Source: Gammaproteobacteria bacterium
GTDB taxonomy: Bacteria; Pseudomonadota; Gammaproteobacteria; SG8-11
Reading direction: 5' to 3'
DNA: 35,271 nt
Assembly (NCBI GenBank): GCA_024641505.1
Contig: JAHECY010000038.1
Location: 1-35,271, forward strand
A program made the translations under genes and the position numbers. Positions 12,063 through 35,167 of this stretch are shown here, piece after piece. Each line of letters opens with the position of its first letter. Position 1 is the stretch's first letter. The notes beneath the pieces were generated by a model. That model was given only the letters and a program-made list of their open reading frames with translations. It did not search any database and was not told the DNA's origin.

Positions 12063-12182
12063 GCTGCGGATTATAGCCCTTGGTCTGGACGATTGGCTAT
12101 AAAATTAAGATCATCACGCATAGATCATCCATGGCCGGCGCCGGATAATCAGGTCTCGTTCAATCAACGCAAGGATACGACC

Positions 12183-12530
12183 ATGACGCAATCCATCACT
12201 CGTGACCAAATTCTGGCCCGCCTGCAGGCTAATGAACCCTTGGTTCTCGTGGAAGCGCTGCCCCCTCAGTACTTCAATAAGGAACATCTTCCCGGTGCCA
12301 TCAATATCAATCACGACCAGATTGCCGCGTTGGCGCCCACCCTGCTTCCGGACAAGAACGCTTTCATTGTCACCTATTGTTCCAACCCCCAGTGCAATAA
12401 CTCAACGCTTGCCGCTCATCAGTTGGCTCAACTTGGATATCGGAATGTGTTCAAATATGCAGGTGGCAAACAGGATTGGCTTGACGCCGGTTTACTTTTG
12501 GAACGTGCTGATTCAGCGGTCGCTGTATAG
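12183..12530 (+). CDS. Cytoplasmic single-domain rhodanese
   Basis: A 115-residue rhodanese-like protein with no signal peptide. The conserved parts are all visible: VLVEALPPQYFNKEHLPGAI (the E-HLPGA strand-turn), the catalytic loop YCSNPQCNNS with C66 as the expected persulfide cysteine and C71 nearby, and GYRNVFKYAGGKQDWLDAGL at the end. Such enzymes move sulfane sulfur between thiosulfate, glutathione persulfide or protein carriers. The ATG at 12183 has AAGGA seven bases upstream; the upstream extension of the frame to 12093 lies in the promoter region. Divergent from an AraC-type regulator and convergent with sqr, it probably handles sulfane sulfur made by the sulfide:quinone oxidoreductase; that link is inferred from proximity. 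Confidence 0.85.
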   Translation: MTQSITRDQILARLQANEPLVLVEALPPQYFNKEHLPGAININHDQIAALAPTLLPDKNAFIVTYCSNPQCNNSTLAAHQLAQLGYRNVFKYAGGKQDWLDAGLLLERADSAVAV

Positions 12531-12582: not shown

Positions 12583-13872
12583 CTATTTGTTAACAATCTT
12601 GCTCTTGAGCTTCACGATACCCAGGGCCTTGAGTATGTACTTCTCGTAAGCAGGCTCGGACTTGCCCTTTTTCATCTTACGGATAAAGTACCACTCGTAT
12701 AACACCTTGGCCAAATGCACCCACTTGCCTTTCTTCATCCAGGCGGTGTTGCGCGGCGGGATCTGCGGCATTGCGACGAAAGCCGCGCCGGTATCCCCCA
12801 TGTCGGCCAGGCAAATGGCATTCCAGGTGGCACGATGATCCGGCGCGTAGCCCATAATGTCATGCTTGATGTTGAATTTCACCGCTTCCACCATGGATTC
12901 GATCATGTAGCCGGTCTTGGGTGCGCCGGTGGGTACCGGCGTTGCTTCTACGGGTGGAATGGCGATGCAGACGCCCAGCGAATAAATATTTTTCCATTTG
13001 GGATTACGCTGAAACTCATCTACCTTGACGAAGCCACGAGGATTGACCAGGTCCTCGCCTACCTGGCTCACTACGTCTACGCCTTTGAAAGCCGGGAGAA
13101 TCATGGAAAACTTATGAGCGACTTCGTGCTGTTTAACCACTTCGCCCCGATCATTGTATTCATCCACAAATATTTTTCCGGGTTCGCATTTGGTGATCTT
13201 CGCGTTGGTGATCCATTTGATGTCGTGGTTACGCAGCTCCGATTCCAGCAAACCTTTGGAATCGCCCACTCCACCCAGACCCAGGTGTCCGATGTAGGGT
13301 TCAGAGGTGATAAACGTCATCGGTACCTTATCGCGAATCTTGCGGCGCCGCAGATCGGTATCCATGATAAAAGCAAACTCGTAAGCAGGGCCAAAGCATG
13401 AAGCAAACGGGGCGGCGCCCACCACGATGGGACCCGGGGCTTTGACAAAGGCTTGCCAATCCTCATGGGCTTTCTCGGCGTGGTCGAGCGTGCAGATGGA
13501 GTGGGTATGACCCTGGGGTCCCAGTCCCGTCACCTCGTCAAAGGCCAGCTTGGGTCCGGTGGCGATGACCAGATAGTCATAATTAATCACCTGGCCATCG
13601 GCCAGCACGATCTGATTTTCATTAGGCTTGAGAGTTTGTGCCGCCTGGCCAATAAAATTGATTTTCTTACGCTTAAGACGCGGTGCCAGGGGAAAACTGG
13701 TGTCCTTGCGGTTGCGCCAGCCAACGGCCACCCAAGGATTGGAGGGCACAAAGTGAAAAGTCTCGGTATTGGAAATCACCGTTACCTCATGTTTCTTACC
13801 CAGCACTTCTTTTATTTCATAGGCAGCGGGTAAACCGCCGGTACTGGCGCCGATAATAACGATATGAGACAT
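12583..13872 (-). CDS. sqr: Sulfide:quinone oxidoreductase, A. ferrooxidans-like
   Basis: A 429-residue flavoprotein of the disulfide oxidoreductase family. The FAD-binding motif IVIIGASTGGLPAAYE is at residues 4-19, followed by FHFVPSNPWVAVGWR, and TGAPKTGYMIESMVEAV near residue 315 closes the flavin site. The three cysteines needed in the Acidithiobacillus ferrooxidans enzyme (128, 160, 356) align with C127 (SICTLDH), C159 (ASCFGPAYE) and C354 (NAICLADMGD). The C-terminal WVHLAKVLYEWYFIRKMKKG is the amphipathic membrane anchor region of the family. The enzyme oxidises sulfide to sulfane sulfur or polysulfide at the membrane and reduces quinone. GAGGAG precedes the ATG. It converges with the rhodanese gene and is divergent from selO. 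Confidence 0.9.
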   Translation of the reverse strand: MSHIVIIGASTGGLPAAYEIKEVLGKKHEVTVISNTETFHFVPSNPWVAVGWRNRKDTSFPLAPRLKRKKINFIGQAAQTLKPNENQIVLADGQVINYDYLVIATGPKLAFDEVTGLGPQGHTHSICTLDHAEKAHEDWQAFVKAPGPIVVGAAPFASCFGPAYEFAFIMDTDLRRRKIRDKVPMTFITSEPYIGHLGLGGVGDSKGLLESELRNHDIKWITNAKITKCEPGKIFVDEYNDRGEVVKQHEVAHKFSMILPAFKGVDVVSQVGEDLVNPRGFVKVDEFQRNPKWKNIYSLGVCIAIPPVEATPVPTGAPKTGYMIESMVEAVKFNIKHDIMGYAPDHRATWNAICLADMGDTGAAFVAMPQIPPRNTAWMKKGKWVHLAKVLYEWYFIRKMKKGKSEPAYEKYILKALGIVKLKSKIVNK

Positions 13873-15529: not shown

Positions 15530-15552
15530 AGGGTCGCTAGACCGGCGCAAAA

Positions 15553-15584
15553 AGAAAACCCCACGATCTCTCGCGGGGTTTTCT
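15553..15584. terminator. Bidirectional terminator between selO and csp
   Basis: AGAAAACCCC (15553-15562) and GGGGTTTTCT (15575-15584) form a perfect 10-bp stem, extended inside by CGA/TCG after one mismatch. On the minus strand the stem is followed by a T-run (TTTTCTTTTT), giving a good intrinsic terminator for csp; on the plus strand it ends selO. Confidence 0.85.
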
Positions 15585-15607
15585 GAAGTCAGCTAACTCG
15601 AGATCGA

Positions 15608-15808
15608 CTAGATCCTGATGTTAGTTGCTTGCGGGCCTTTGGGACCGTTTTCCACATCGTAGGTCACCTGCTGGCCTTCGGCCAGCGTACGGAAACCTTC
15701 GCTTACGATCGCGGAAAAGTGCGCAAATACGTCTTTACTGCCATCGGAAGGCGTAATAAAGCCGAAACCCTTGGATTCGTTAAACCATTTAACGGTTCCT
15801 GTTGCCAT
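15608..15808 (-). CDS. csp: Cold shock protein, CspA family
   Basis: A 66-residue single cold-shock domain, the standard length. RNP1 is KGFGFI (in [14 protein letters not shown]) and RNP2 is VFAHFS; the ending [11 protein letters not shown] is typical. These proteins bind single-stranded RNA and DNA and melt RNA structure, often during cold adaptation. The ATG at 15808 has GAGG eight bases upstream; an in-frame extension to 15901 lies in what is better read as the 5' leader. About 150 or more AT-rich bases precede the gene, compatible with the long leaders of cold-shock mRNAs, but no cold box is recognised. It converges with selO. Confidence 0.95.
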
Positions 15809-16154
15809 GGTAATTACCTCATTAAATAATAAATAAATTTCATATGTTACAAATCTTACAAGGTTACTAACAGGAGAAAGCATATAGAGAACTTCTGACA
15901 AGAACCAGGATAGAATGTAGCGCTAGTAAGTGTACCTGTTTTTAAAAGAAAAACACCAATTATTTCTATCAATAACCAATTAAATTAGTCGATTCATGGC
16001 ATTAACTTTGCTTTGAATCCTCGAATCCGACAAGAATAGCGTGACATCGGTTTGCTTTGCCGCAAACCCGGTGTTGGAAACCAGCCTTTTAGTGCATTTT
16101 CGGGTATGATGCATCTTCAAGTGCCGGCCTCAATTCCGCGGCGCCATCGGCAAT
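15809..16154. other. Divergent intergenic region, csp leader and promoters
   Basis: No gene is supported. The csp side is AT-rich and probably contains its promoter and a long 5' untranslated leader. The methyltransferase side (16020-16154) is more GC-rich and has no clear promoter. No strong repeats are seen. Confidence 0.45.
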
Positions 16155-17142: not shown

Positions 17143-19434
17143 CTAACCGGATTTGTCCTGTAGTGGCGCCGCGGGCGGCGGCGCGTCACGTTTGAGCTCC
17201 AATACGCGCAGAAAGTCCGCGTCATGCCAATAGTTGGTAAAATCCGTGTCCGTCATGAATTTATCGGCGGTCTTGCCGTGGGCGAGCGCTTGATGCATGG
17301 CGGTGAGCAACGAATCCTTGTCGCCATGCAGGGAGTAATAACAGGCCAAATTAAACAGCAAAGTGGCGTTTTCAAGGGTGGTCATATCGAAGCCGGGACC
17401 CAGCAACTTGGCCAAAATCTCTTCGACCAAGGCTTCGTTATGCGTTCGAGTGGCGACCGCCAGGCTATTGCTGGCGATAATCTCAAGGTTACGCGCGAAC
17501 TCTACGTTTTGGTCGGGGCCACCGGTGTGCGGGAGAATGCGATCGATAAAATAACGTACGATTGATTCAGCGGTTTGATAGTCTTCCTGCGCAGCGCGCT
17601 GGTTCAAAAGATCGTTGGCATAAGCAAGAATGATGTTGGCATAATCCCTGGCATACATGCTCGTTGCCGCGATCTCGGCCGAAAGCTTGATGAAGTCCGG
17701 CAGCAATGTCGTATCTTGCAGCGCGCTCTCGTGCGCTATCGCCAGTTTAGCTTTTTCAAAGCGTCGGGTGACGGCAGGCAGGTCTTCGTCGCTACCGTAA
17801 TGCGGTGACGCCGCCACATAGGAGCTGCGCGTGAGCGCCACGCTTTTCTCGTTGTGACGCAGACGTAGGCTCAGGCGTGCGCCGACTTTTTCCAATTGTT
17901 CCAGGTCTATTTCCAACTGCAATGGTTGTTGCTTGCCGTTGAAATGCCGGAAGGCGGCGGCTACTTCCGCCGCATTAAAAATGATCTCAAGAGACAGTTT
18001 AGGATCATCCCGGCGCAGATTAAACCAGGCATGATCGTTGCCGTTCAGGTACAACTTGAACGCGGACCTGTCATTCTTGCCTTCCCAGTTAAACGTCAAT
18101 TTCGTTGGCATGGCATGGAGGGTCACGGGTACCGATGCCGCGTCCAGCAGATAATGGTGGGGAACGTCCGTGCCGTTGTCGAGGTTTACGTCACCCCAAA
18201 CCGAGTGATATGATTTCATGCCCGTGAATACCGGTTGCCATGCGATTGCAGGGCGGCGCGGTGTTTGCGGCACGGCGCCGGGCTTTTTCCGAATCACATA
18301 CAAGCCCACATCTTTCTCGTGATGCTTGACAAGGTTCTCTTGGCGGTCGAGGTAATTGTATTCGCCACCACGGTAGCTTATTTCAATTAACGCGATGTCT
18401 TTGTTGCCGGCGAAAATCCCGCTTTGCAAGCCATAAAGCGCCAGGTTCTTAAAATTAATGCCGTCCTTTTCCTGCGACACGAACGCTTTGAATTTCAGCG
18501 GCTCGGATCGATACCGTAATTGGAAATAGCCGGTTCCATACCAGTACGACTCCGGCAAACTGCCCGGAATACCGCGCGACTTCAGATATTTACCAAGCGT
18601 CTTGCCCAGCACCCAATTCCCGAATCCCTCTTCGTAATAATAAAAATCTCTGGAAAAATTTACGATGTGAATCGGCAGGCTGTTATCGTTCCAGTCAGGA
18701 CTGAAGGGTAACTCGTCCGTCAACGGCGCCAACCGGGCTGGATATTTGCGGGTGTAACCTTCCAGGCAGGTTTCCTGCCAGATTTCCTTGTTGCGACGAT
18801 TATATTCCCCGCAACTCTCATCGCTTTCACCCAGCCGGTTGGTAATGTCCAATAGCGTCCAGCGATTATTTGATTTCAGCAGGGCCACGTTACGCGTGTT
18901 CTGTTCATCCTGACGGAACGAGAAAAATTCCACGATTTCCGCCTGGTCCAAGCGCGCGACCAGTTCACTGTCGGACATCGCGTCGGTGCTGACGATGTCC
19001 TGCAGCGTTTGCTCCACCCGGTTCCCGGTATCGATCCAATCGACAAGTCGCTTATACCAGAAATGTTCACCGGAATCGTAACTCCAGGAATCCGTCCACA
19101 ACTGCACTCCTGAATTCAGCAAGCCGCTGCTCCCGCGCAGGGTGTCGATCACCCGACCTTGGTCATTGATTTTCCATAAGTAGCCTGCCGCTTGCACCAG
19201 TACCGTATCCGTATCTTTGGCATAAAATATTGCCGCTATTTCACCGTTGATAAGTTTCCTGATCTCATAGCTATCGGATACCACCAAGTCCTCCGACAGA
19301 TAGTGGTAGTCATCAAAAGACTTCGACAACGCAAACTTCGGCAGTAAGCTCATGATAATCGTAACTCCCAAGACGGCCAGCGCGGCAAGTATCCCTCCCC
19401 GGCCGAGGCGCCCTTGAAACGCGTCACAGGTCAA
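17143..19434 (-). CDS. Large exported or membrane-anchored unknown protein, 763 aa
   Basis: Not recognised as a whole. A hydrophobic segment at residues about 13-35 (ILAALAVLGVTIIMSLLP) acts as signal peptide or anchor. Residues about 40-200 are strand-rich, with IAAIFYAKDTDTVLVQAAGY and LWKINDQGRVIDTLRG reminiscent of a beta-propeller blade. A middle part is Trp/Tyr-rich (SYHSVWGDVNLDNGTDVPHH). Residues about 590-750 are helical, and NLACYYSLHGDKDSLLTAMH followed by a Phe-rich end looks like a TPR-type end-of-group repeat. The only upstream starts in frame are TTG codons: a stop lies two codons before the TTG at 19434, so that one was used, and an internal ATG 28 codons on is possible. A small signal-peptide ORF overlaps its start. 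Confidence 0.65.
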   Translation of the reverse strand: MTCDAFQGRLGRGGILAALAVLGVTIIMSLLPKFALSKSFDDYHYLSEDLVVSDSYEIRKLINGEIAAIFYAKDTDTVLVQAAGYLWKINDQGRVIDTLRGSSGLLNSGVQLWTDSWSYDSGEHFWYKRLVDWIDTGNRVEQTLQDIVSTDAMSDSELVARLDQAEIVEFFSFRQDEQNTRNVALLKSNNRWTLLDITNRLGESDESCGEYNRRNKEIWQETCLEGYTRKYPARLAPLTDELPFSPDWNDNSLPIHIVNFSRDFYYYEEGFGNWVLGKTLGKYLKSRGIPGSLPESYWYGTGYFQLRYRSEPLKFKAFVSQEKDGINFKNLALYGLQSGIFAGNKDIALIEISYRGGEYNYLDRQENLVKHHEKDVGLYVIRKKPGAVPQTPRRPAIAWQPVFTGMKSYHSVWGDVNLDNGTDVPHHYLLDAASVPVTLHAMPTKLTFNWEGKNDRSAFKLYLNGNDHAWFNLRRDDPKLSLEIIFNAAEVAAAFRHFNGKQQPLQLEIDLEQLEKVGARLSLRLRHNEKSVALTRSSYVAASPHYGSDEDLPAVTRRFEKAKLAIAHESALQDTTLLPDFIKLSAEIAATSMYARDYANIILAYANDLLNQRAAQEDYQTAESIVRYFIDRILPHTGGPDQNVEFARNLEIIASNSLAVATRTHNEALVEEILAKLLGPGFDMTTLENATLLFNLACYYSLHGDKDSLLTAMHQALAHGKTADKFMTDTDFTNYWHDADFLRVLELKRDAPPPAAPLQDKSG

Positions 19435-19623: not shown

Positions 19624-19919
19624 TTTTACAGCTCCCCTTGCCTTTGATCCTTACGGCTGGTCATTGAATTCTATTCGCAGACCCTGCGGCATCATAACAC
19701 GGACGATATCCGCCACCTATCCAGCAGGTGTGTGAGCGCGCAGTGGGATAACGGCGGAATAGAAACTGTATGGCAGGGTCATTATGTCAATTAATATAAA
19801 CAATAGATCAAACTAATAGTCGAGCCCTTTGGTGTAGTTATTTCGCTAGCGGCCGCTAACATCAGATATAGGGTGTAGTAACAATCCATCCCTTTCTCAG
19901 GAAAGAAGGAGGCTATGTT
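19624..19919. other. Divergent control region upstream of the Cyc2-like gene
   Basis: The 485 bases between the two long genes (19435-19919) hold the small minus-strand ORF and this control region, which has no gene. It contains an AT-rich patch (19785-19820) and the palindrome at 19847-19858; an AAGGAGG Shine-Dalgarno sits at 19906-19912. No clear -35/-10 pair was chosen. Confidence 0.45.
19847..19858. repeat. 12-bp palindrome upstream of the Cyc2-like gene
   Basis: TAGCGGCCGCTA is a perfect palindrome about 60 bases before the ATG at 19920. It might be an operator; a chance occurrence is also possible at this length. Confidence 0.35.
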
Positions 19920-21173
19920 ATGCATTGTCACATCCGAATGCTTAAATCGATCCGGGGCTATGTGCTACCGATGATTGTCATGCTGTGGCTACCATCGTAC
20001 AGCGCCGCAATACCTGCTTTTGCCAGACAGGCGAATGCCGAATGCGCCGCTTGTCACTATCAACACTTTCCAAAACTAAATAACTTTGGCCGCTATTTTA
20101 AAGCAAACGGCTATTCCTTGATGACGGATGAACCGCTGGCGGGTGACGATCTCAGTTTACCACCGAATCTTAACTTTACCTTTTTCATGCGTACACGCTA
20201 TGTCGGTAGCAGCGATGCCAACGGCAGTTGGCAAGTACCCGATGAAGCGGCGATTCTTGTCGGCGGTCGTCTGGCGGAAGGTGCGGGGGGAATGGTTGAA
20301 TGGGGCGGTCCTCTGCTCAGCGCCAAGGCATCTTTTACCCGCGACATATCCGGCATTAACCTCGGCACCACGGTATTTACCACCGATGGCCTTGGTGCCG
20401 GTTATGGTTTTGAATTGATGAACACCGGTGTCGTCAGAAATCTGCGTGGTTTTGAACGCTCCGCCAATTCACTCACGGGTAACAACAGCCGCCTTGAAGT
20501 GGCGGGTGCCGCTACCGGTCTGGCCGTACATCTCGCGACCTCGAAATGGTTCAGCGCGCTCACCCTGTTCGTGCCTGACAGTAACGAGGCGGGTATTTCA
20601 GAAATGGATGCCGGCGGCACCATGTCGTACTATGTGCGCGCGGCGTGGACGCCGCAATTCACCGGTAATGACACCGGTCTGGGTTTCGGTAAATATGGCG
20701 GTCAGAGTAAAGTTACCACGGTCGATGATGGCAGTGGCGCGGATGCGTTCGGAAACACACCCGGTTCCTATAAACTCGCGACCAACGCCGCCTTTGTTGA
20801 TGCCCAGTTCCAGGGTTACCTTGGCAGTCATTCCCTGGCGGTATATTTAATGTATGCCATCGGTGATAAATCCGCGGCCGGCACCGACTCCGTCAAACTC
20901 TGGGCCGGTACCGATAACCGACCCTCGGCATGGGGCCTGGATCTGGAATATGAAATGAGCAAGGGCTTCAATCTGTTGGCGACCAGCGGTAGTTTTAACG
21001 ATGGCAGCGCGGGTCTCAGCGCAAAATCGCTCTATGGATTAGGCTTCTATTGGAAGATCCACCAGAACGTCACTTTGCAACCGATGATTGAATATTTCAA
21101 TGGGGACCAGGGTGTGGACGCCAACGGCGACGCTATTATCCGCTACACGATGACTCTGGAAACGGTATTTTAA
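19920..21173 (+). CDS. Cyc2-like monohaem cytochrome-porin fusion
   Basis: A 417-residue exported protein with a signal peptide (core VLPMIVMLWLP, cleavage near SAA) followed at once by AIPAFARQANAECAACH: a single CXXCH haem site (C42, C45, H46). Then comes HFPKLNNFGRYFKANGY. This FARQ-CxxCH-P-LN-FGR-FK-GY order is the mark of Cyc2, the outer-membrane iron oxidase of Acidithiobacillus and neutrophilic iron oxidisers. Residues about 80-417 are alternating strands rich in Gly, aromatic and Ser/Thr residues and end in Phe (MTLETVF), as expected of a beta-barrel; length matches Cyc2 (about 400-480). It would pass electrons from an extracellular donor across the outer membrane. A perfect AAGGAGG lies seven bases before the ATG. 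Not all relatives have proven iron oxidase activity. Confidence 0.75.
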   Translation: MHCHIRMLKSIRGYVLPMIVMLWLPSYSAAIPAFARQANAECAACHYQHFPKLNNFGRYFKANGYSLMTDEPLAGDDLSLPPNLNFTFFMRTRYVGSSDANGSWQVPDEAAILVGGRLAEGAGGMVEWGGPLLSAKASFTRDISGINLGTTVFTTDGLGAGYGFELMNTGVVRNLRGFERSANSLTGNNSRLEVAGAATGLAVHLATSKWFSALTLFVPDSNEAGISEMDAGGTMSYYVRAAWTPQFTGNDTGLGFGKYGGQSKVTTVDDGSGADAFGNTPGSYKLATNAAFVDAQFQGYLGSHSLAVYLMYAIGDKSAAGTDSVKLWAGTDNRPSAWGLDLEYEMSKGFNLLATSGSFNDGSAGLSAKSLYGLGFYWKIHQNVTLQPMIEYFNGDQGVDANGDAIIRYTMTLETVF

Positions 21174-21401
21174 AATAGAGATGGCGGCGACTCGCAGCGC
21201 GGATCGCTTGCACGCCGGTTGGCGAAAACGATGCCTGGCTTGGAACAACCGGTGGCAGCAACCCTGCCGGAACTGCCGCGGTCTCCGCAACGGTACTCAC
21301 TTGCTTCGCCCATACGTCCAGCATGCGCTTTAACCGCTAGTGGTCCATGCGTATAATTAGGTAACAACCGGTATACGCTTGGTAGCGCCGGTTCGGCTAA
21401 T

Positions 21402-21418
21402 GGTGCGTAAAACGCACC
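21402..21418. repeat. REP-like short palindrome
   Basis: GGTGCGT and ACGCACC are perfect complements around an AAA loop, followed by CTTACCGACCG. The form recalls the GGTGCG-AAA-CGCACC(C) interspersed palindromes of many proteobacteria. Only one copy was noticed in this window, so dispersal cannot be shown here. Confidence 0.4.
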
Positions 21419-21633
21419 CTTACCGACCGAATCTGTTCACTGCGCGCGGCACGTATGGGTGTCACCGTATTTTACGCATGGACCGCTGGCTATCCGGTTG
21501 TATCATTCACCACGAGCAATACATCAACAAAGACGTTATGACAAATACGTCACCCACTGGTGAGGCAATCTGGCGCTATTGAACGGCCCGGCCCGGCCCG
21601 GCATAGCACTGGAAACACAAACCCCCGCTTCCC

Positions 21634-21669: not shown

Positions 21670-23091
21670 ATGATAGAAAAGGATCTGTTTGCCCAGTTAC
21701 CCGACGAGCTGTTCCGGCCACTGGCATCGCCGCGTCAGCGGCTGTATTGGCGGGTACTGGTGCGCCTGTACCAGACTCTGTTCGAGGAGGAGTATGGGGA
21801 TTCGGAGTACGGCCATGCGCGTACCCTGGTAATAAATACCATCGAAACAGTGCTGAATCAATATACCGGTCTGTGGGTGGATGATCCCGAGGATGAGGAC
21901 AGCGGTGGCGATATTCGCCTGCGCGCCAATCTGGTCTACAACAAGCTGCGTCAATGCGGCTGGATGGAGCAGGACCGGCGCGCCTACCACGATTATGTCA
22001 CGATGCCGCCCCGGGTCAGCCAATGCCTGGCGGCCCTGATCGAATTGTCCGAAGGCCGGGCCCTGGTGATGACCGGCGCCCTGAAAAACATGCGCGCTAC
22101 GATTCGCGAAATTCAGGCCAAGCCCGAGGGGCAAGCGGACCGTCTGGTGGAACTGGCCAAGGACGCGGCGCGCTTTTCCCGTCACCTCAACAGCATTCGC
22201 GGCGCCATCAAGGGTCTCTATGATCGCATTCGTGGCGATCTGCCGGCCCGGGACATCGTCAACGCGTTCTTCGACGATTTCCTGCGGGAGATCTTTGTCC
22301 GGGATTACACCACCATCAAGACCACCGATAATCCCCTGGCCATTCGCGATGAGCTGTTGGCGGTGCTGGCCGGACTGCGTTATCAACCGGATAAGCAGCA
22401 AGTCTTGCTCGCCGGTTACCAGGCCCTGTATCCCGGTGCCGCGGACCATGCCCGCGCGCACCTTGATCAGGACCTGTCCCGGCTGGAGCAGGTGTTCCTG
22501 AATATAGAGCGTCAGTTGGACGGCATCGACGCCATGAAAGTGCGCTATGAAAAGCGCGTGGACACGGTGATCGACTACGCCACGCGCACCACCCGCCCCA
22601 TTGGCAAGGATCTGGCTCGCGTCATCGACGCCCTGAGTTCCCGTGGATTGCAATTCCCGGATCTGCCGGTGCGGGTACCGTTGCAACATCCGGAAGGCGT
22701 GGGCGAGAGCCGTTTTCAGGCACCGCGCCGCTTTCGGCCGCCGCCCCAGCCCAGCGTACTGCGGGAGCGCGTGCTCAGCGCCGGGGTCAAGGAACGGCTG
22801 GCCCTGGAGCGCGCGGCGCGTCAGGCCATCCAAATCGATGATAAGGGCTTGCTGGCGTTTCTCGAGACTCAAATGGGACAGCGGCACTCGGTGCAGCTGC
22901 CGGACCTGATCATTCATTCGGTACGCGATTACTTCTGCGTGCTCAATGTACTGCGCGCCGCCCGGTTTCAGGCCGGCGCGCGCCGTTTGTTTCCCAAGTT
23001 CAGCCGGTATTACGATATCACCGGCACCGACCAATGGGTGGAAACCGACTATATCAAAGCCCGCAACATCGTTATCAGTAAACGGATCTGA
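21670..23091 (+). CDS. jetA: Wadjet protein JetA (kleisin-like subunit)
   Basis: A 473-residue protein resembling the JetA family of Wadjet systems: it opens DLFAQLPDELFRPLASPRQR and continues with YGHARTLVINTIETVLNQYT, then long helices (GALKNMRATIREIQAKPEG, RFSRHLNSIRGAIKGLYDRI) and a central stretch IRDELLAVLAGLRY. The C-terminal part (YFCVLNVLRAARFQAGARRL) is a small folded domain. In Wadjet complexes JetA plays the kleisin role of MukF, joining the SMC heads and holding JetB. It appears not to be the type I (DUF3375) form by recollection; type II is more likely. The ribosome-binding site is weak. It is the first gene of a four-gene operon; jetB starts two bases after its stop. GC is visibly higher than in flanking genes. 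Confidence 0.88.
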   Translation: MIEKDLFAQLPDELFRPLASPRQRLYWRVLVRLYQTLFEEEYGDSEYGHARTLVINTIETVLNQYTGLWVDDPEDEDSGGDIRLRANLVYNKLRQCGWMEQDRRAYHDYVTMPPRVSQCLAALIELSEGRALVMTGALKNMRATIREIQAKPEGQADRLVELAKDAARFSRHLNSIRGAIKGLYDRIRGDLPARDIVNAFFDDFLREIFVRDYTTIKTTDNPLAIRDELLAVLAGLRYQPDKQQVLLAGYQALYPGAADHARAHLDQDLSRLEQVFLNIERQLDGIDAMKVRYEKRVDTVIDYATRTTRPIGKDLARVIDALSSRGLQFPDLPVRVPLQHPEGVGESRFQAPRRFRPPPQPSVLRERVLSAGVKERLALERAARQAIQIDDKGLLAFLETQMGQRHSVQLPDLIIHSVRDYFCVLNVLRAARFQAGARRLFPKFSRYYDITGTDQWVETDYIKARNIVISKRI

Positions 23092-23093
23092 AT

Positions 23094-23705
23094 ATGCTCA
23101 GTGAATTGAAAAGCCTCCTGGCCCGCAATGAGGATGTGGAGGAAGAGACAGTGAAACAGGCGGCCTATGCGCTGCTCAGCCAGCAGTTTCTGCACCGCGG
23201 CCGGCCGCGCCAGCGCAAACACTATGAAACCGTGGTGCGTTTTCAGACCTATTTCGTCAATCTCATGGACGCCAACAACCAGCAATTGACCATCAACGAA
23301 ACCCACGGCTATGCGGGCGTGATACCCCAGGATTTCACGCGGCGCATGAAGTTGGAGGAAACGCTGTTGCTGCTCGCCCTGCGCTATATCTATGACGAGG
23401 AAATCAACGCTTTTCATGCCCGCGACGATGGCAGCGTGGATATCAGTATCGAGGATTTGCAGGTGCGCTACCAGCAATTGACCAAGCGCGACCTGCCCTT
23501 CCATAAGATGGAATTCGATGCCTTGACCCTGCCCCTGGAACAACAGGGTATCGTGGTCTCGGGTGCGGACCCGGAACAGCCGGAAATCAATCGCGTGAAA
23601 ATTTTGCCCAGCATCACCGCCTTGTTGACCGGCGATGCGTTACGCATGCTGGAGCTCTACGGTAAAGCCGATGCGGAAGCCTTGGCGTTCAAGGAAAGCT
23701 TATGA
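23094..23705 (+). CDS. jetB: Wadjet protein JetB (KITE-like, DUF4194)
   Basis: A 203-residue protein of the DUF4194/JetB family: AAYALLSQQFLHRGRPRQRK near the start, the paired winged-helix-like core (YFVNLMDANNQQLTINETHG, GVIPQDFTRRMKLEETLLLL) with the LRYIYDEEI segment, and a C-terminal PEINRVKILPSITALLTGDA. JetB is the MukE/KITE-like subunit that bridges the JetA kleisin and JetC heads. Size and order match known Wadjet operons. Its start is two bases after the jetA stop, and its stop codon overlaps the jetC start (ATGA at 23702), indicating translational coupling. Confidence 0.9.
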   Translation: MLSELKSLLARNEDVEEETVKQAAYALLSQQFLHRGRPRQRKHYETVVRFQTYFVNLMDANNQQLTINETHGYAGVIPQDFTRRMKLEETLLLLALRYIYDEEINAFHARDDGSVDISIEDLQVRYQQLTKRDLPFHKMEFDALTLPLEQQGIVVSGADPEQPEINRVKILPSITALLTGDALRMLELYGKADAEALAFKESL

Positions 23706-26700
23706 AACGTCTGACGCGCATTATATTCGTCAACTGGTATTTATTCGCCGCCAAACAATGGGAAGTCACCGGCCATGTGGCGTTGATCGGCAAGAACGGC
23801 TCCGGTAAATCCAGTTTTATCGATGCCATGCAGTACGTGCTGCTGGGCGGCCACAAAACCGACTGGCATCCTAACGCCAAGGCCTCGGAGACCCGCCGTA
23901 CCCGGGATGTGCGCAGTTATGTGCTGGGGCTGGTGAAGGACGAATCCGCGATCAGCGACGCCGGCAGCTCCTTTCAACCCCGGGAACAGGCCCTGTGCCG
24001 CCTGGTGCTGGTGTTCGAGGATGAAGACAGCGGCGAATTGACCTCCGTCGGCGCCGCCATCAGCGCCCGGCGTAACGATCCCAAGGAGGAAGTCGAAGGC
24101 TTCTTTATCTTGAAGGGATTGGGTTTGACCCTGGACGACGTCACCAGCCGCACCGAGCAGGGACGCATCGAAAAGTCCTACGCCATGATGACCGCGGATT
24201 TCCGCCGCCGGCTGCCGGACGAGCAGCGGTTTCTGTTCAAGCACGAACCCGGGCAATTCGTCGAGCAATTGCTGCGCAGCCTGGGCCCGGCCAATCGGCC
24301 CCCGGCGCTGGCCAAATACAAACGCTCATTCAAGCAGTCCATCAATCTCAGCGGCCTGGACGATTCCGTGTCCGAATTCGTGAAACATTCCATTCTCGAT
24401 GCTCAGCCCCTGAACCTGGAACAAATGCGCCAGAGTATCGCCTCCTACCGTAACAAACTGGATGCCGTAAAGCGCGCCCAGGACCAGGTCAAGGCTCTGG
24501 AGCAGATCCACGAGTCATTTCAGCGTGCCGTGAAAGCCGGCCAGCGGCGCGCCGGCTATCAATGGTGTGCCCAGGAGCTGCGTTTTCAGGGGCACCAGGA
24601 TCTGATCGACCGTTTAGAGCAAAATTTGGCGGATACCGTGCTCAAGTACCGCAAACTGCGTGAGGCACGGGGTGAATTACAACAGCAATTGCTACAACAA
24701 CGCGCGGCACTGGAAGAGCTGACCACCACCATCAACAATAACGATTCGGAAATCAATCTGAAACGCTTGCAGGAACGGGAGCAGATGGAGCAACAAAACC
24801 TGCAGCGCGGCGAGCAGCAATTGCAGGAATTGCGCCGGCAGTTGAGCATCGTGACGGAAGTGTTGCGTTATCGGGAAGTGCTGCCCGCGGCATCGCACCC
24901 GGCGCTGCAGCGACTGGCCGATGACACGCGCGACGGTCTTCTGGACTGGCCCATGGAACCGGCACCGTTCGATGCGCGTATCGACACCTTGCGTGAGCGC
25001 TTGCCCGACGACATCACGCAATTGGATGACCGGCACCACCATGAAAAACACGAGGCCGCGCAATCCCGCGACCGGCTCGGCGAGGTGCAGGAACGCCTGA
25101 CGCGCCTGCGTGACGGCCAGGCGGACCTGAGCCCCGCCACGCTCGGTTTGCAACAGGCCCTGGCCGAACACGGTATCGAAGCGACGCCGGTGTGTGACCT
25201 GGTGGAAGTCAGCGATAAGAACTGGCAACCGGCCATCGAAGCGTTTTTACGACAGAACACCGAGGCGCTGGTGGTGCCGCCGACCAAGGCCAAACAAGCC
25301 GTGGACATCTATCGCGGCATGCGTAAAAGCATCGCCTACGGCGCGGTGGTGATCAACACGCAACGGGTGCAGGACTGGCGCGATAAGCCCGAAGCCGGCA
25401 CCGCCGCCGCTTTGATTCGCGGCAGTGATCCTCTGGCCACCGCTTATGTGCAACGTTTGTTGAAGGGCATCCGCCTGGCGGAAGTCACCAGCGAGTTCAT
25501 GGGTCTGGAACGGGCCTTGACCCCGGACGGCATGTATATCCGGCAGGCGGGCATCAGCCGCCTGCGCTTACCCGAGGTGCCCAAACTGGGCCAGGGCGCG
25601 CGCGAGGAGCAGATTAAGGCCCTGGAACTGGAAACCTCCACCTTGATCACGCGGCTCACGGAATTGAACGCCAGCCACGGTAAACTGGAACGCGTCCTGA
25701 CCCAGTTACGCGATCTGCACCATGATGTGAAGAAGATGCCGGCTACCGCGCCGCTGATCAAGGAACGCGTCGGTCTGCGGCGCGTGATTCAAGACCTGCA
25801 GGCCAGCATCGCCGCCGTCGATACCCGCCATCTGGCGGACCTGAAAGTAAAACAGCAAACCTTGAAAACCGCCGTGCAGGATGCGGATCAACGCCTGGTG
25901 AAGTACGTGCGCGAGGAAGGCGGCGCGCGCACCGAGTTTCGCGGTAACAACCGCCAGCGTCACGTCCTCATGGCCCACACCCCAGAACTGGGTGCCGCCC
26001 GCACTCGGGCCGCAAAAGATGACGACTTTGAGGCCGGCCGCGCGTCCGAACTCCTGGAACAACTGGAAACCGAGGCGGCCGCCAAGGCGCAGCAAAGTTT
26101 CGAGGACATGATCAAGGTCGCGGATCACAAAGCTCACGATGCCGAAACGCACCAGAGCGCCGATAACACCCGCGCCCGGGAAGCGCTGGCGGAATACCGC
26201 GCCACCTACCAATCCGAAGGCTCGGCATTCGACGCCCACACCACCGCGGGGTTTCGCACCCTGGTTGCCGAAATGCTGCACGACATCCGCGATATCGGCC
26301 TGCACAAGCGGCAACAGGACGTGGCCGACGCCCTGCACCGGGTGCAACAGGTGGTGCGCCATGATCTGGCGATTCGCCTGCGCAGCCAGATCGAACAAAT
26401 GCGTCAGCGCTTGCATGAATTGAACACGGAGTTGAAAGCGCGGCCCTTCTCCGCCAATCAAATCTACCAGTTCAGTTATGAACAACTGAACGAGTTCCGG
26501 GAATTTCTCAGCTATGTCAACGTGGTCAACGATACCGTGGCCGCCAATACCGGCAGCTTGTTTGACGAACACGCGCATTTGAATCAGTACATCGAGGCAA
26601 TGTTATCGGAAAATGAAGGCGACCGGCTGGGCGACTATCGTAACTATTTTCGCTTCGACATCGCGATCAAGGACCCGGACGCGGGTATTACCGAGATGCT

Positions 26701-27097
26701 GTCCCGGCGCATGGGCGCCGCTTCCGGGGGCGAGCACAAAACGCCGTTTTATGTTGCCATGGGCGCGTCCCTGGCCAGCGCGTTTCGCATCGAGCGCCGT
26801 GGCGACGGCAGCCTGGATGGTGGCCTGTCCCTGTATCTGGCGGACGAGGCATTCGAGAAAATGGATCATGTCAACACCGTGCAGGCCGCTGGCTATCTCA
26901 AATCCATCGGGCTGCAACTGTTCGTAGCGGCTCCCGATGACGCGGAACCCAAGCTGCGCCAACTGGTGGATACCGTGTTGTACTTCATGCGCGAAGGCAA
27001 TACCGCGGAAGTGGAAGTGGACTATGTGACCGATGCCGCACGCCGGCTGCTGGAGCAGTCGGCGCGGCACCCGGACCTTGCCCCTGAGCTTGCGTGA
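23702..27097 (+). CDS. jetC: Wadjet protein JetC (SMC/MukB-like ATPase)
   Basis: A 1131-residue SMC-type ATPase. Walker A GKNGSGKS is at residues 30-37; long coiled coils rich in Gln, Glu and Arg run about 230-470 and 640-980 and enclose a hinge around 490-620 (LVVPPTKAKQAVDIYRGMRK). The C-terminal head has the ABC signature in GAASGGEHKTPFYVAMGA (about 1001-1018) and Walker B LSLYLADEAFEKMD (about 1041-1054). JetC dimers extrude DNA loops with ATP; in Wadjet this is how circular plasmids below a size limit are recognised. All catalytic motifs are intact, so the complex should be active. It overlaps jetB by ATGA and jetD by GTGA. High GC matches jetA and jetB. Confidence 0.93.
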   Translation: MKRLTRIIFVNWYLFAAKQWEVTGHVALIGKNGSGKSSFIDAMQYVLLGGHKTDWHPNAKASETRRTRDVRSYVLGLVKDESAISDAGSSFQPREQALCRLVLVFEDEDSGELTSVGAAISARRNDPKEEVEGFFILKGLGLTLDDVTSRTEQGRIEKSYAMMTADFRRRLPDEQRFLFKHEPGQFVEQLLRSLGPANRPPALAKYKRSFKQSINLSGLDDSVSEFVKHSILDAQPLNLEQMRQSIASYRNKLDAVKRAQDQVKALEQIHESFQRAVKAGQRRAGYQWCAQELRFQGHQDLIDRLEQNLADTVLKYRKLREARGELQQQLLQQRAALEELTTTINNNDSEINLKRLQEREQMEQQNLQRGEQQLQELRRQLSIVTEVLRYREVLPAASHPALQRLADDTRDGLLDWPMEPAPFDARIDTLRERLPDDITQLDDRHHHEKHEAAQSRDRLGEVQERLTRLRDGQADLSPATLGLQQALAEHGIEATPVCDLVEVSDKNWQPAIEAFLRQNTEALVVPPTKAKQAVDIYRGMRKSIAYGAVVINTQRVQDWRDKPEAGTAAALIRGSDPLATAYVQRLLKGIRLAEVTSEFMGLERALTPDGMYIRQAGISRLRLPEVPKLGQGAREEQIKALELETSTLITRLTELNASHGKLERVLTQLRDLHHDVKKMPATAPLIKERVGLRRVIQDLQASIAAVDTRHLADLKVKQQTLKTAVQDADQRLVKYVREEGGARTEFRGNNRQRHVLMAHTPELGAARTRAAKDDDFEAGRASELLEQLETEAAAKAQQSFEDMIKVADHKAHDAETHQSADNTRAREALAEYRATYQSEGSAFDAHTTAGFRTLVAEMLHDIRDIGLHKRQQDVADALHRVQQVVRHDLAIRLRSQIEQMRQRLHELNTELKARPFSANQIYQFSYEQLNEFREFLSYVNVVNDTVAANTGSLFDEHAHLNQYIEAMLSENEGDRLGDYRNYFRFDIAIKDPDAGITEMLSRRMGAASGGEHKTPFYVAMGASLASAFRIERRGDGSLDGGLSLYLADEAFEKMDHVNTVQAAGYLKSIGLQLFVAAPDDAEPKLRQLVDTVLYFMREGNTAEVEVDYVTDAARRLLEQSARHPDLAPELA

Positions 27098-28386
27098 AAC
27101 ACCCATCCGAATCTCAAGACCAGGCACCGAACCGGCCGGTGGTGGACGCTGCGGACCGCAGGCCGCGGGCGTCGACCCTCGAACCCGGGCCACAGGCGTT
27201 GCAGCGGCTGCTGGCCGGCGGTGAAACCCTGAAGGAACGCAGTCGCGATGTAACCCTGGCCGCCGGTAAAATACCAGGCTACCCGTTTGAAAACGCGCTG
27301 CAAATTCGAGAATTTCACGGATATTTGCAGCTGGCTGCCGATACCGGGGCCATCAAGCTGGAATGGCAGGCATATTATGAAAACCAGCAGCTGGCGCGCA
27401 TTCGTCTACTGGACGCGCGTGCGCTGGCGCATTTTCTCGACAGGGATTTTCTTCCAGACCGGATCGACGCGGTGTTCACGGCTCTTGATCGCGACCACTT
27501 GGCGCCCTGGTTGCAGGAAGCATTGGATCTGATGCGGAACAAGTGGCAGCAGGGTCAAATGGCTTTTGGTTTAGGCATCGAGGATGCGGATCGACTGCAT
27601 GACGTGCTGCGCGCCGCCAGTCAACTGAGCACTGGCTTGGCCGCGGGCGACACCCTGGATTACCGACAATTCGGCGCGCGCTATCTCGGTAATTCCAAGC
27701 GCACTAAAGAGTTGGTCAACAACCTCGCCGCCCTGCTCCGCTGGCATACAGGCTTAAAGGACCTCAAACCCCAGGACCTGTTGCGCCAGTTCAATCTGGT
27801 ACCCCTGCAGCAACCGGTGCTGCTGACCGGCCCGGTTCAACTGTCCGACGGCAAGCAGACGCTGTATATTGACGTTTATCCCTATATCGGAGTGCCTGAA
27901 TCCTTTCTCGGCAGCATCGAACCTGCGGCTGCCGCCACTTATATACTCACCATTGAAAACCAGTCCAGCTTCAACGAATATACCGCCAGTATCAGTGATG
28001 GCGGCATTGTGATCTACACCGGCGGCTTTCCCACTTCCCGCCTGCAACGATTCTATCGGCATCTTACGGACGCTATTGCCGCGCCCTGCTATCATTGGGG
28101 CGACACTGATGCTTATGGTTTCGAAATCCTGAAAACCTTGCAGCAAATCGCACCGGAACGCATAGTCACCCCCCATTTGATGAACCCCGGCAGCGGTACC
28201 GGCGCCCGTTACAGTCGTGAACAGCTGGCGCATTTGCAGCGCCTGTTGCCGGTCAATGCCGTCACGGACGGTGTCATCAGCAAGCTCCTGGCCCAGGGTG
28301 TGGGTCTGCAGGAGCAGGAATCTCAGGTTGCCCGGTCACCCCTGGACACGGGGGCGTCTGCCGCACTTAGCCCGGGTTCGGATTGA
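27094..28386 (+). CDS. jetD: Wadjet nuclease JetD (DUF3322/DUF2220, Toprim)
   Basis: A 430-residue protein with an N-terminal DUF3322-like part (AGKIPGYPFENALQIREFHG region onward; about residues 60-230) and a C-terminal DUF2220/Toprim-like nuclease part. Catalytic acids are visible as E288 in ILTIENQSSF and the DxD pair D337/D339 in YHWGDTDAYGFEIL, the usual Toprim triad. JetD is the endonuclease that cleaves plasmid DNA once JetABC has stalled on it. The first 50 residues are Pro/Arg/Asp-rich and probably disordered. The start is a GTG overlapping the jetC stop codon as GTGA. It ends the operon; a TetR-type gene follows after about 170 bases with its own promoter. Confidence 0.88.
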   Translation: MKHPSESQDQAPNRPVVDAADRRPRASTLEPGPQALQRLLAGGETLKERSRDVTLAAGKIPGYPFENALQIREFHGYLQLAADTGAIKLEWQAYYENQQLARIRLLDARALAHFLDRDFLPDRIDAVFTALDRDHLAPWLQEALDLMRNKWQQGQMAFGLGIEDADRLHDVLRAASQLSTGLAAGDTLDYRQFGARYLGNSKRTKELVNNLAALLRWHTGLKDLKPQDLLRQFNLVPLQQPVLLTGPVQLSDGKQTLYIDVYPYIGVPESFLGSIEPAAAATYILTIENQSSFNEYTASISDGGIVIYTGGFPTSRLQRFYRHLTDAIAAPCYHWGDTDAYGFEILKTLQQIAPERIVTPHLMNPGSGTGARYSREQLAHLQRLLPVNAVTDGVISKLLAQGVGLQEQESQVARSPLDTGASAALSPGSD

Positions 28387-33905: not shown

Positions 33906-34769
33906 TCATTTTTCGATGGGCAAGCTATCATCGTTCCCCCACTCGCGCCAGGACCCATCATAGTTTGCCACATCATAGCCAAGCTCACGCAACACCAGGT
34001 AGTTGGCGGATGATGTGCGTCCAATTTCGCAATAGAGTACGATTTTCCTGTCCTTGGGCAGTGGCGCATAGATTTTTTCCAGCTCATCCTTGTCCTTTAA
34101 TACTACGGTTCCTCCCCGTTTTGAAAAATTCTGCCCAACAGGATAATTCAATGCGGATGGTATATGTCCGAAGCGTTTGGCGGTGGACGTATCTCCCTTG
34201 TAGGCCTCCATGTTGCGGGCATCCACCACCAACAGGTTGGGATTAACCGTCGCCAATTGAGTGCTGAACTTACTGGCGATGCGTTGTTGGTTGATCGTTG
34301 CAACATAGTGACTAAGTGCCGGGTCTGGAATTTCCTGTGCGCTTGGGTAATGATCCGCAATCCAGGCATCATAACCGGGACTGAGGATCTTTATTTCCGT
34401 CAAGCCATAGACTTCCAGTGTCCAGAACACTCGCGCCGCATCGATCAATTGTCCGCTGTCGTAAATAACCACCAATTTGCTTTTGTCGATGCCACGCTCG
34501 CGCAACAGGGTTTGCATGATATCCGGCTCGACGATTAGGCCCCCCTCGCTCTTTTGTTGGTACGTCAGTCTATCCGGCAGATTCAATGCACCGGGTATGT
34601 GAGCTCGCAGGTATTCCGCCTCGTGGCGAGTATCCAGTATCAAAAGTTGTGGATCATGCAAATGTGCCTGTAGCCACGCCGGCGTCACCCGAAGTGACGC
34701 CGCGTGTACGGATGGACCGAGCAGCGGCAGGAGCACGAGCAGCGTGGCGGCGAGAGATCGTTTGTTCAA
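33906..34769 (-). CDS. Exported two-domain sulfurtransferase (rhodanese)
   Basis: A 287-residue thiosulfate sulfurtransferase-type protein with two rhodanese domains and a signal peptide (MNKRSLAATLLVLLPLLGPS, cleavage after VHA). The N-terminal domain is inactive: the catalytic place reads IYDSGQLIDAARVFW without cysteine. The C-terminal domain has the active loop VLYCEIGRTSS with C247 as the persulfide cysteine and a closing GYDVANYDGSWREWG. Periplasmic enzymes of this form transfer sulfane sulfur from thiosulfate to thiols or cyanide. The TTG at 34769 is preferred to the frame start at 34853: AGGA lies eight bases upstream and it places the signal peptide at the N-terminus. A histidine kinase gene follows 27 bases downstream. 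Confidence 0.85.
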   Translation of the reverse strand: MNKRSLAATLLVLLPLLGPSVHAASLRVTPAWLQAHLHDPQLLILDTRHEAEYLRAHIPGALNLPDRLTYQQKSEGGLIVEPDIMQTLLRERGIDKSKLVVIYDSGQLIDAARVFWTLEVYGLTEIKILSPGYDAWIADHYPSAQEIPDPALSHYVATINQQRIASKFSTQLATVNPNLLVVDARNMEAYKGDTSTAKRFGHIPSALNYPVGQNFSKRGGTVVLKDKDELEKIYAPLPKDRKIVLYCEIGRTSSANYLVLRELGYDVANYDGSWREWGNDDSLPIEK

Positions 34770-35167
34770 AGCAATTTTCCTGCGTGTGGGTTTAAGGCTC
34801 GAAACGCGACCAGGTCTAAGTAATATCGGCTGTAATGGCAACTGCTGAACCATAAATCGATATGCAATCGTTTGTTTTTACGATCAAAAAGTAATATAGC
34901 CCAGTATCCACGCCGGGACCTGCCAGATGATTAAATCTTGAATTGCAGCGATGGTTGAGTAAAACACGCCATGTGTCGCGGCAATCAGGCCGTTTTTGGC
35001 TTTAAACGCACTGCGCCAAGATGCCAGGCCTGGCCGAGTCAATATTTCATTATTATATTGGAGGAAAAAAGGGGCGGTCGCTAATCACCAGGGGTAATCA
35101 CTGACAACCAACAGCAACATCACTGCCTCGGAACACGATGCGGTACTAGTGCTGACGCGAGGCGGAG
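34770..35167. other. Intergenic region upstream of the sulfurtransferase gene
   Basis: No gene is supported. The part nearest the sulfurtransferase gene is AT-rich and probably holds its promoter (a minus-strand TTGATC near 34885 is a possible -35). A run of As after GGAGG at about 35060-35070 stands out but starts no long frame. Confidence 0.4.

Follow-up and report, generated by a model that had tools for sequence, protein, structure and literature searches.

The gene, its motif and the predicted barrel

The window (the whole stretch of 35,271 nucleotides that was analysed) carries on its forward strand a gene for a fused cytochrome and porin resembling Cyc2, whose reading frame runs from 19920 to 21173 exactly, as had been indicated before. 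The features on which the following argument depends are these:

19904–19912 (+): ribosome-binding site AGAAGGAGG, evident in the sequence itself, with 7 nt between it and the ATG
19920–21173 (+): Cyc2-like fused cytochrome-porin gene, 417 aa, ATG start
19920–20009 (+): Sec signal peptide, about residues 1–30, from the hydrophobic profile (helix 4–22 in the model)
20007–20030 (+): AIPAFARQ motif of the Cyc2 cytochrome region, residues 30–37, from the sequence and the family alignment
20043–20057 (+): CAACH haem c attachment site, residues 42–46, from the sequence and the family alignment
20070–20078 (+): PKL (PXL motif), residues 51–53, four residues past the CXXCH, from the sequence and the alignment
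20169–21170 (+): predicted 16-strand beta-barrel, residues 84–417, from the AlphaFold2 model

The hydrophobic segment of the signal peptide covers approximately residues 11–24, with AIPAFARQANAECAACHYQHFPKLNNFGRYFKANGY directly after it, and we infer a cleavage site near SYSAA/IPAF. The 417-residue protein has a single CXXCH, within AIPAFARQANAECAACHYQHFPKL, and ends in Phe; the position of this haem site directly after the signal peptide, one of the points of the original prediction, is borne out by both the sequence and the hydrophobic profile. Across its six frames the window has a single instance of the combined motif A-x-P-x-[FY]-A-R-[QK]-x4-CXXCH-x4-P-x-L, and 30 shuffles produced none, so that we reject a chance origin (CXXCH alone is found four times in the six frames, versus about 2.4 expected by chance). 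We likewise reject the idea of a pseudogene, since the frame is intact, a ribosome-binding site is present and the invariant residues of the family are retained.

Cyc2, as described by Keffer et al. 2021 (PMC8406198), has a signal peptide, a single CXXCH with AXPXFAR[Q/K][T/Y] shortly upstream and PXL four residues downstream, a length of at least 365 aa, and a barrel of 16 strands similar to those of OprO (4RJW) and OprP (2O4V). The window protein reads AIPAFARQ-ANAE-CAACH-YQHF-PKL, with the spacing of the published motif, and it agrees with the published description in signal peptide, motif spacing, length (at least 365 aa) and number of strands (16), in everything except one residue: the strict motif ends in T or Y, and residue 38 is A. 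This position is occupied by T in 66 of the 80 scored sequences and varies in the other 14, among them Gallionellaceae-type proteins with Q (L044, L058 and L078), which suggests that T/Y is a consensus and is seemingly not essential. The Cyc2 architecture proposed at the outset thus holds for motif, spacing, length and barrel, with a difference in the residue at the motif end; in view of this departure in the sequence, we do not claim strict Cyc2 membership for the protein.

The barrel was predicted with AlphaFold2 from 65 aligned sequences (mean pLDDT 79, pTM 0.79). The model has exactly 16 strands of at least seven residues, all lying between residues 84 and 416, which is the count that had been set beforehand as a test, and the strand-rich part does end in the C-terminal Phe. 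When compared with known structures by VIA-align, the model gave tied matches, with Z around 22, to OprB (4gey; Z 22.0 over 300 residues, 3.9 A), OprP (2o4v; Z 21.9 over 303 residues, 3.5 A) and OprO (4rjw; Z 21.7 over 304 residues, 3.6 A). A Gallionella homologue put through the same prediction as a control also gave 16 strands, in the same order and with the same top matches (OprP Z 23.1, OprO 22.8, OprB 21.9). Earlier work had likewise matched Cyc2PV-1 to OprO and OprP, or used these two as its structural templates (PMC8406198). The cytochrome part is poorly resolved in the model, with pLDDT below 50 at residues 24–51.

A search of the window protein against Pfam and NCBIfam gave no match, and phmmer and profile searches of the PDB sequences gave nothing meaningful; Pfam Porin_4 matches 24 of the 65 sequences of the family alignment weakly (best E 2.8e-6). 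Matches in plasmid records span only 10–25% of the protein, around the haem region, and scans for promoters and terminators returned no more than chance.

Relatives, tree and gene neighbourhood

Relatives were sought in one genome per species (84,980 species scanned), and the best 80 of 139 were kept. Among these best 80, the closest are proteins of two gammaproteobacterial MAGs, RBG_16_57_12 (L019) and X1_MaxBin.010 (L020), with about 45% identity over the full length. The next ones, mostly 30–38% identical, come from Gallionella (L063), Sideroxyarcus (L044), Chlorobiaceae (L089, L092) and Sulfurimonas (L072), together with Thiodiazotropha, tubeworm symbionts, Chromatiaceae, Nitrospirota and "Deltaproteobacteria", and the homologous family, defined by full-length homology, also takes in proteins of Nitrosomonadales. 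Of 369 genomes drawn from the class of the host, just 12 contain a protein that matches at E 1e-20 or better. Within these 12, the genome of L020 is the sole one other than the host whose match is of the same type; it belongs to a different family from the host. The one genome of the host's own genus that was examined, which is 79% complete, lacks the cyc2-like gene of the window.

L019 and L020 group with the window protein in a single clade (support 100/100), on a long branch of 1.43 changes per column. In the full tree this trio falls inside a group of 79 rows (90/97), at an unresolved fork; this group includes L004 but none of the remaining FAR-CXXCH porins of the class. After removal of the longest branches and rooting on seven members of the superfamily, a core of 52 rows forms one clade (99/97) with the trio as its sister. 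Nesting of the trio with gammaproteobacterial (p 0.25) or Muproteobacterial (p 0.24) members is not rejected by the AU test, and its basal position possibly reflects long-branch attraction to the outgroup. The published membership of Cyc2 Cluster 1 corresponds to the taxa of these relatives (PMC7029218; PMC12442345), and it is from these published taxa that we take the label "Cluster 1", because the tree is without an identified Zetaproteobacterial or biochemically characterised sequence. The sequences therefore suggest that the trio is either sister to the Cluster 1-type group or placed deep within it. In line with the original prediction, the protein does not fall among unrelated haem-porins. 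It lies next to or within the group that contains Gallionellaceae and Chlorobi, and adds a new, deep branch to the Cyc2-like cytochrome-porins.

With Cluster 1 (Mariprofundus ferrooxydans PV-1, Gallionellaceae, photoferrotrophic Chlorobi) the window protein shares the signal peptide, the order A-x-P-x-FAR-Q-x4-CXXCH-x4-PXL, a length of about 400 residues, a predicted 16-strand barrel near OprP/OprO and a C-terminal aromatic residue, and it is 31–35% identical to the members from Gallionellaceae and Chlorobiaceae. It differs from them in having a clade of its own, A in place of T/Y, changes in conserved columns and no adjoining redox gene. The changes are unevenly spread. R36, Q37, C42, C45, H46, Q48, P51, G57 and F60 are invariant, being common to the window protein and all 64 aligned homologues, whereas 98 columns show conservation of at least 85% among the 62 alignment sequences outside the trio, and of these 36 are changed in the trio and 26 in the window protein, nearly all of them in the barrel (P152, A188, N213, W250, Q257, P305 and G345 are among the positions altered). 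His204 is specific to the clade and present in all three proteins. Identity to the proteins of the iron-oxidiser groups is 51–56% in the cytochrome segment versus 30–34% in the barrel, so that the haem plug appears to have stayed constant while the pore drifted or was retuned.

The gene stands alone. Before it, across a gap of 485 nt, lies a divergent TPR gene (17143–19434, −), and on the 3' side a gap of about 500 nt, which holds a dispersed repeat, is followed by the Wadjet genes JetABCD (21670–28386). A redox operon with the direct neighbours is therefore rejected: no cytochrome gene adjoins the window gene at this locus, and the gene order of the Acidithiobacillus-type rus operon (cyc2-cyc1-cup-cox-rus) is absent around it. 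In the relatives (76 loci), dihaem cytochromes c are the commonest neighbours; such a gene, belonging to one of two families (25 and 6 loci), is the next one or the one after at about 30 of the 76, which fits a redox role. L019 and L020 likewise have no cytochrome gene directly downstream, so that the solitary state may be a trait of the clade.

Proteins that read like PEGA lipoproteins, a label given from sequence reading alone, also turn up repeatedly near the cyc2 homologues of several phyla (L023, L043, L052, L061 and L065 among others). They fall into two sequence clusters, of 21 and 22 loci, and we are not aware that a role alongside Cyc2 has been published for them.

Host gene content and the case for electron uptake

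The host genome (4.78 Mb in 222 contigs, 99.5% complete, 3.1% contamination) contains two RuBisCO large subunits, a cbb3-type oxidase, a NorC/NorB-like pair and many cytochromes c. The genes dsrA, dsrB and dsrE adjoin one another on one contig; we take DsrE to mark the oxidative Dsr pathway, and the set is thus presumably of the oxidative kind. At one locus (C209; L136, 324–6652) an OmcA/MtrC protein of 830 aa with 10 CXXCH is followed by a DmsE/MtrA decahaem cytochrome, MtrB and a dihaem protein, and at another (C222; L137, 8205–12089) a DmsE/MtrA decahaem cytochrome and MtrB occur with a dihaem gene. By their sequences, these loci encode two Mtr-type outer-membrane conduits in an autotroph that carries dsr genes. 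Contamination is disfavoured as their source, because the genome of the same genus also has MtrB; MtrB/PioB was not found in the genomes of L019 and L020, in contrast with the two loci of the host. Conduits of the MtoAB, PioAB and MtrCAB types serve the same task at the outer membrane as Cyc2, but they combine a separate, larger porin with separate decahaem cytochromes and belong to another sequence family.

The host has in addition a second FARQT-CXXCH-porin (C179; L002; L130, 2082–4271), which has two genes for monohaem cytochromes c behind it and is a candidate for a compact pathway of its own. This paralogue has the same architecture as the window protein, but its motif ends in T (FARQT) where that of the window protein ends in A, it sits in another branch of the superfamily, and no monohaem cytochromes follow the window gene. 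The combination found in this host is not unprecedented, since Gallionellaceae are known to combine Cyc2 with oxidative Dsr and with MtoAB, the latter either accompanied by MtrC or not (PMC10734462).

The original prediction also pointed to an sqr and two sulfurtransferases close by, which are the following:

12093–12530 (+): rhodanese, sulfurtransferase
12583–13872 (−): "sqr", an FAD-dependent oxidoreductase related to sulfide:quinone reductases
33906–34853 (−): double rhodanese, sulfurtransferase

Both sulfurtransferases are real, but the "sqr" falls far below the curated SQR cut-off (108 versus 525 bits). The rhodaneses and the "sqr" lie 6–13 kb from the cyc2-like gene and share no operon with it. 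The broader suggestion, that the host is equipped for sulphur oxidation together with extracellular electron transfer, agrees with the presence of dsrABE and of the two Mtr-type conduits.

With the gene, its motif, its family, the predicted barrel fold and the gene content of the host established, we think that the protein is probably (we would put it at about 0.58) a divergent, Cyc2-like cytochrome-porin of the outer membrane that takes up electrons from outside the cell, with Fe(II) as the likeliest donor. From the sequence and the model we infer that the protein is loaded with haem, where it sits, which way its electrons flow, what donates them and what receives them in the periplasm. An extracellular donor small enough for the pore, most likely dissolved Fe2+, would give one electron to the haem, which would hand it on to a soluble cytochrome c of the periplasm whose gene lies elsewhere in the genome; from there electrons would go to the cbb3-type oxidase or to nitrogen oxides, and in part uphill for the fixation of CO2, and the Fe(III) produced would remain outside the cell. 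We prefer Fe(II) as donor because it is used by those members of the wider family that have been tested, one per cluster. A potential of 208 mV is reported for Cyc2PV-1 (PMC8406198). What speaks against this reading is the branch of 1.43, the separate clade, the 26 changed columns out of 98, the A at the motif end, the want of an adjoining cytochrome gene, the low confidence of the model in its cytochrome part and the absence of the gene from the 79% complete genome of the same genus. With so long a branch, an altered barrel and a host that oxidises sulphur, a different donor is a serious possibility, and we regard iron oxidation by this protein as a sound hypothesis, rather than as a finding.

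The same architecture could indeed take up electrons from something else, whether reduced sulphur species, an organic or humic shuttle, partner cells or minerals, and the divergent barrel of the clade would then mirror a pore changed for that donor. Many relatives belong to sulphur oxidisers (Thiodiazotropha, tubeworm symbionts, Chromatiaceae, Sulfurimonas), the host has dsrABE, and the clade keeps the cytochrome motif while it alters conserved barrel columns and has its own His204; we nevertheless consider such a donor unlikely, if quite conceivable, given that, where members of the wider family have been tested biochemically, they oxidise Fe(II) (PMC8406198), and that no published case was found in the literature searched. 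In its most specific form, this idea would make the window clade a further functional branch of the Cyc2 superfamily, with an altered barrel that takes a donor other than Fe2+ in a reverse-Dsr sulphur oxidiser, in parallel to two Mtr-type conduits, and so precise a scenario seems to us rather improbable.

It is about as doubtful that the protein is an ordinary diffusion porin, with a haem used for assembly, sensing or defence against oxidants and no respiratory role. A solitary gene with no adjoining electron-transfer gene would suit such a porin, and so would the wide distribution of the FAR-x-CXXCH porin superfamily, many members of which are not known iron oxidisers (PMC8406198), but the cytochrome part is the most conserved region (51–68% identity versus 30–45% for the barrel), which would be odd for a dispensable haem, and the dihaem cytochromes c so common beside the relatives point the same way. 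The MtrCAB arrangement with OmcA/MtrC serves metal reduction in Shewanella, and the MtrCAB-like locus of the host, with its OmcA/MtrC decahaem protein, could hint that electrons flow outward here as well, for disposal to extracellular acceptors under anoxia. This we find very improbable for the window protein: one haem without an extracellular cytochrome domain would make a poor outward wire, Mtr complexes can work both ways, and MtrC co-occurs with Cyc2 in iron-oxidising Gallionellaceae (PMC10734462).

The gene touches on a question raised in the recent literature, namely iron oxidation by Cyc2 homologues in sulphur oxidisers; such oxidation by the Cyc2 of sulphur-oxidising gammaproteobacterial symbionts has not been shown (PMC12442345). 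The host unites dsrABE, two RuBisCOs, two Mtr-type conduits and two Cyc2-type porins, and the window protein, as a deep outlier of the neutrophilic group, offers a useful test of how far the rule that Cyc2 means iron oxidation can be extended. Its clade is also a possible outgroup for rooting Cluster 1.

Elsewhere in the host (C151; L129, 7406–12718), genes for cytochromes c with two, three and five haems lie clustered, and their products are possible periplasmic partners.

Other features of the window

The Wadjet anti-plasmid system at 21670–28386 is complete, with JetA, JetB (DUF4194), JetC (SMC-like) and JetD. Its G+C content is about 60%, versus about 52% for the cyc2-like gene, which resembles the rest of the window in this respect; a joint arrival of the cyc2-like gene and the Wadjet genes is thus unsupported by composition. 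Between the two, at 21336–21490, lies an imperfect palindromic element of about 155 bp with terminal inverted repeats close to CTAGTGGTCCATGCGTA, of which some ten more near-complete or partial copies (75–89% identity) occur in the same genome, and which looks like a MITE.

The first part of the window encodes a hemerythrin-domain protein (127–813). Between a SelO gene and a methyltransferase gene, at 15551–15980 (−), there is a match over the full model length to the Rfam cspA cold-shock thermoregulator leader (90.6 bits versus a gathering score of 78).
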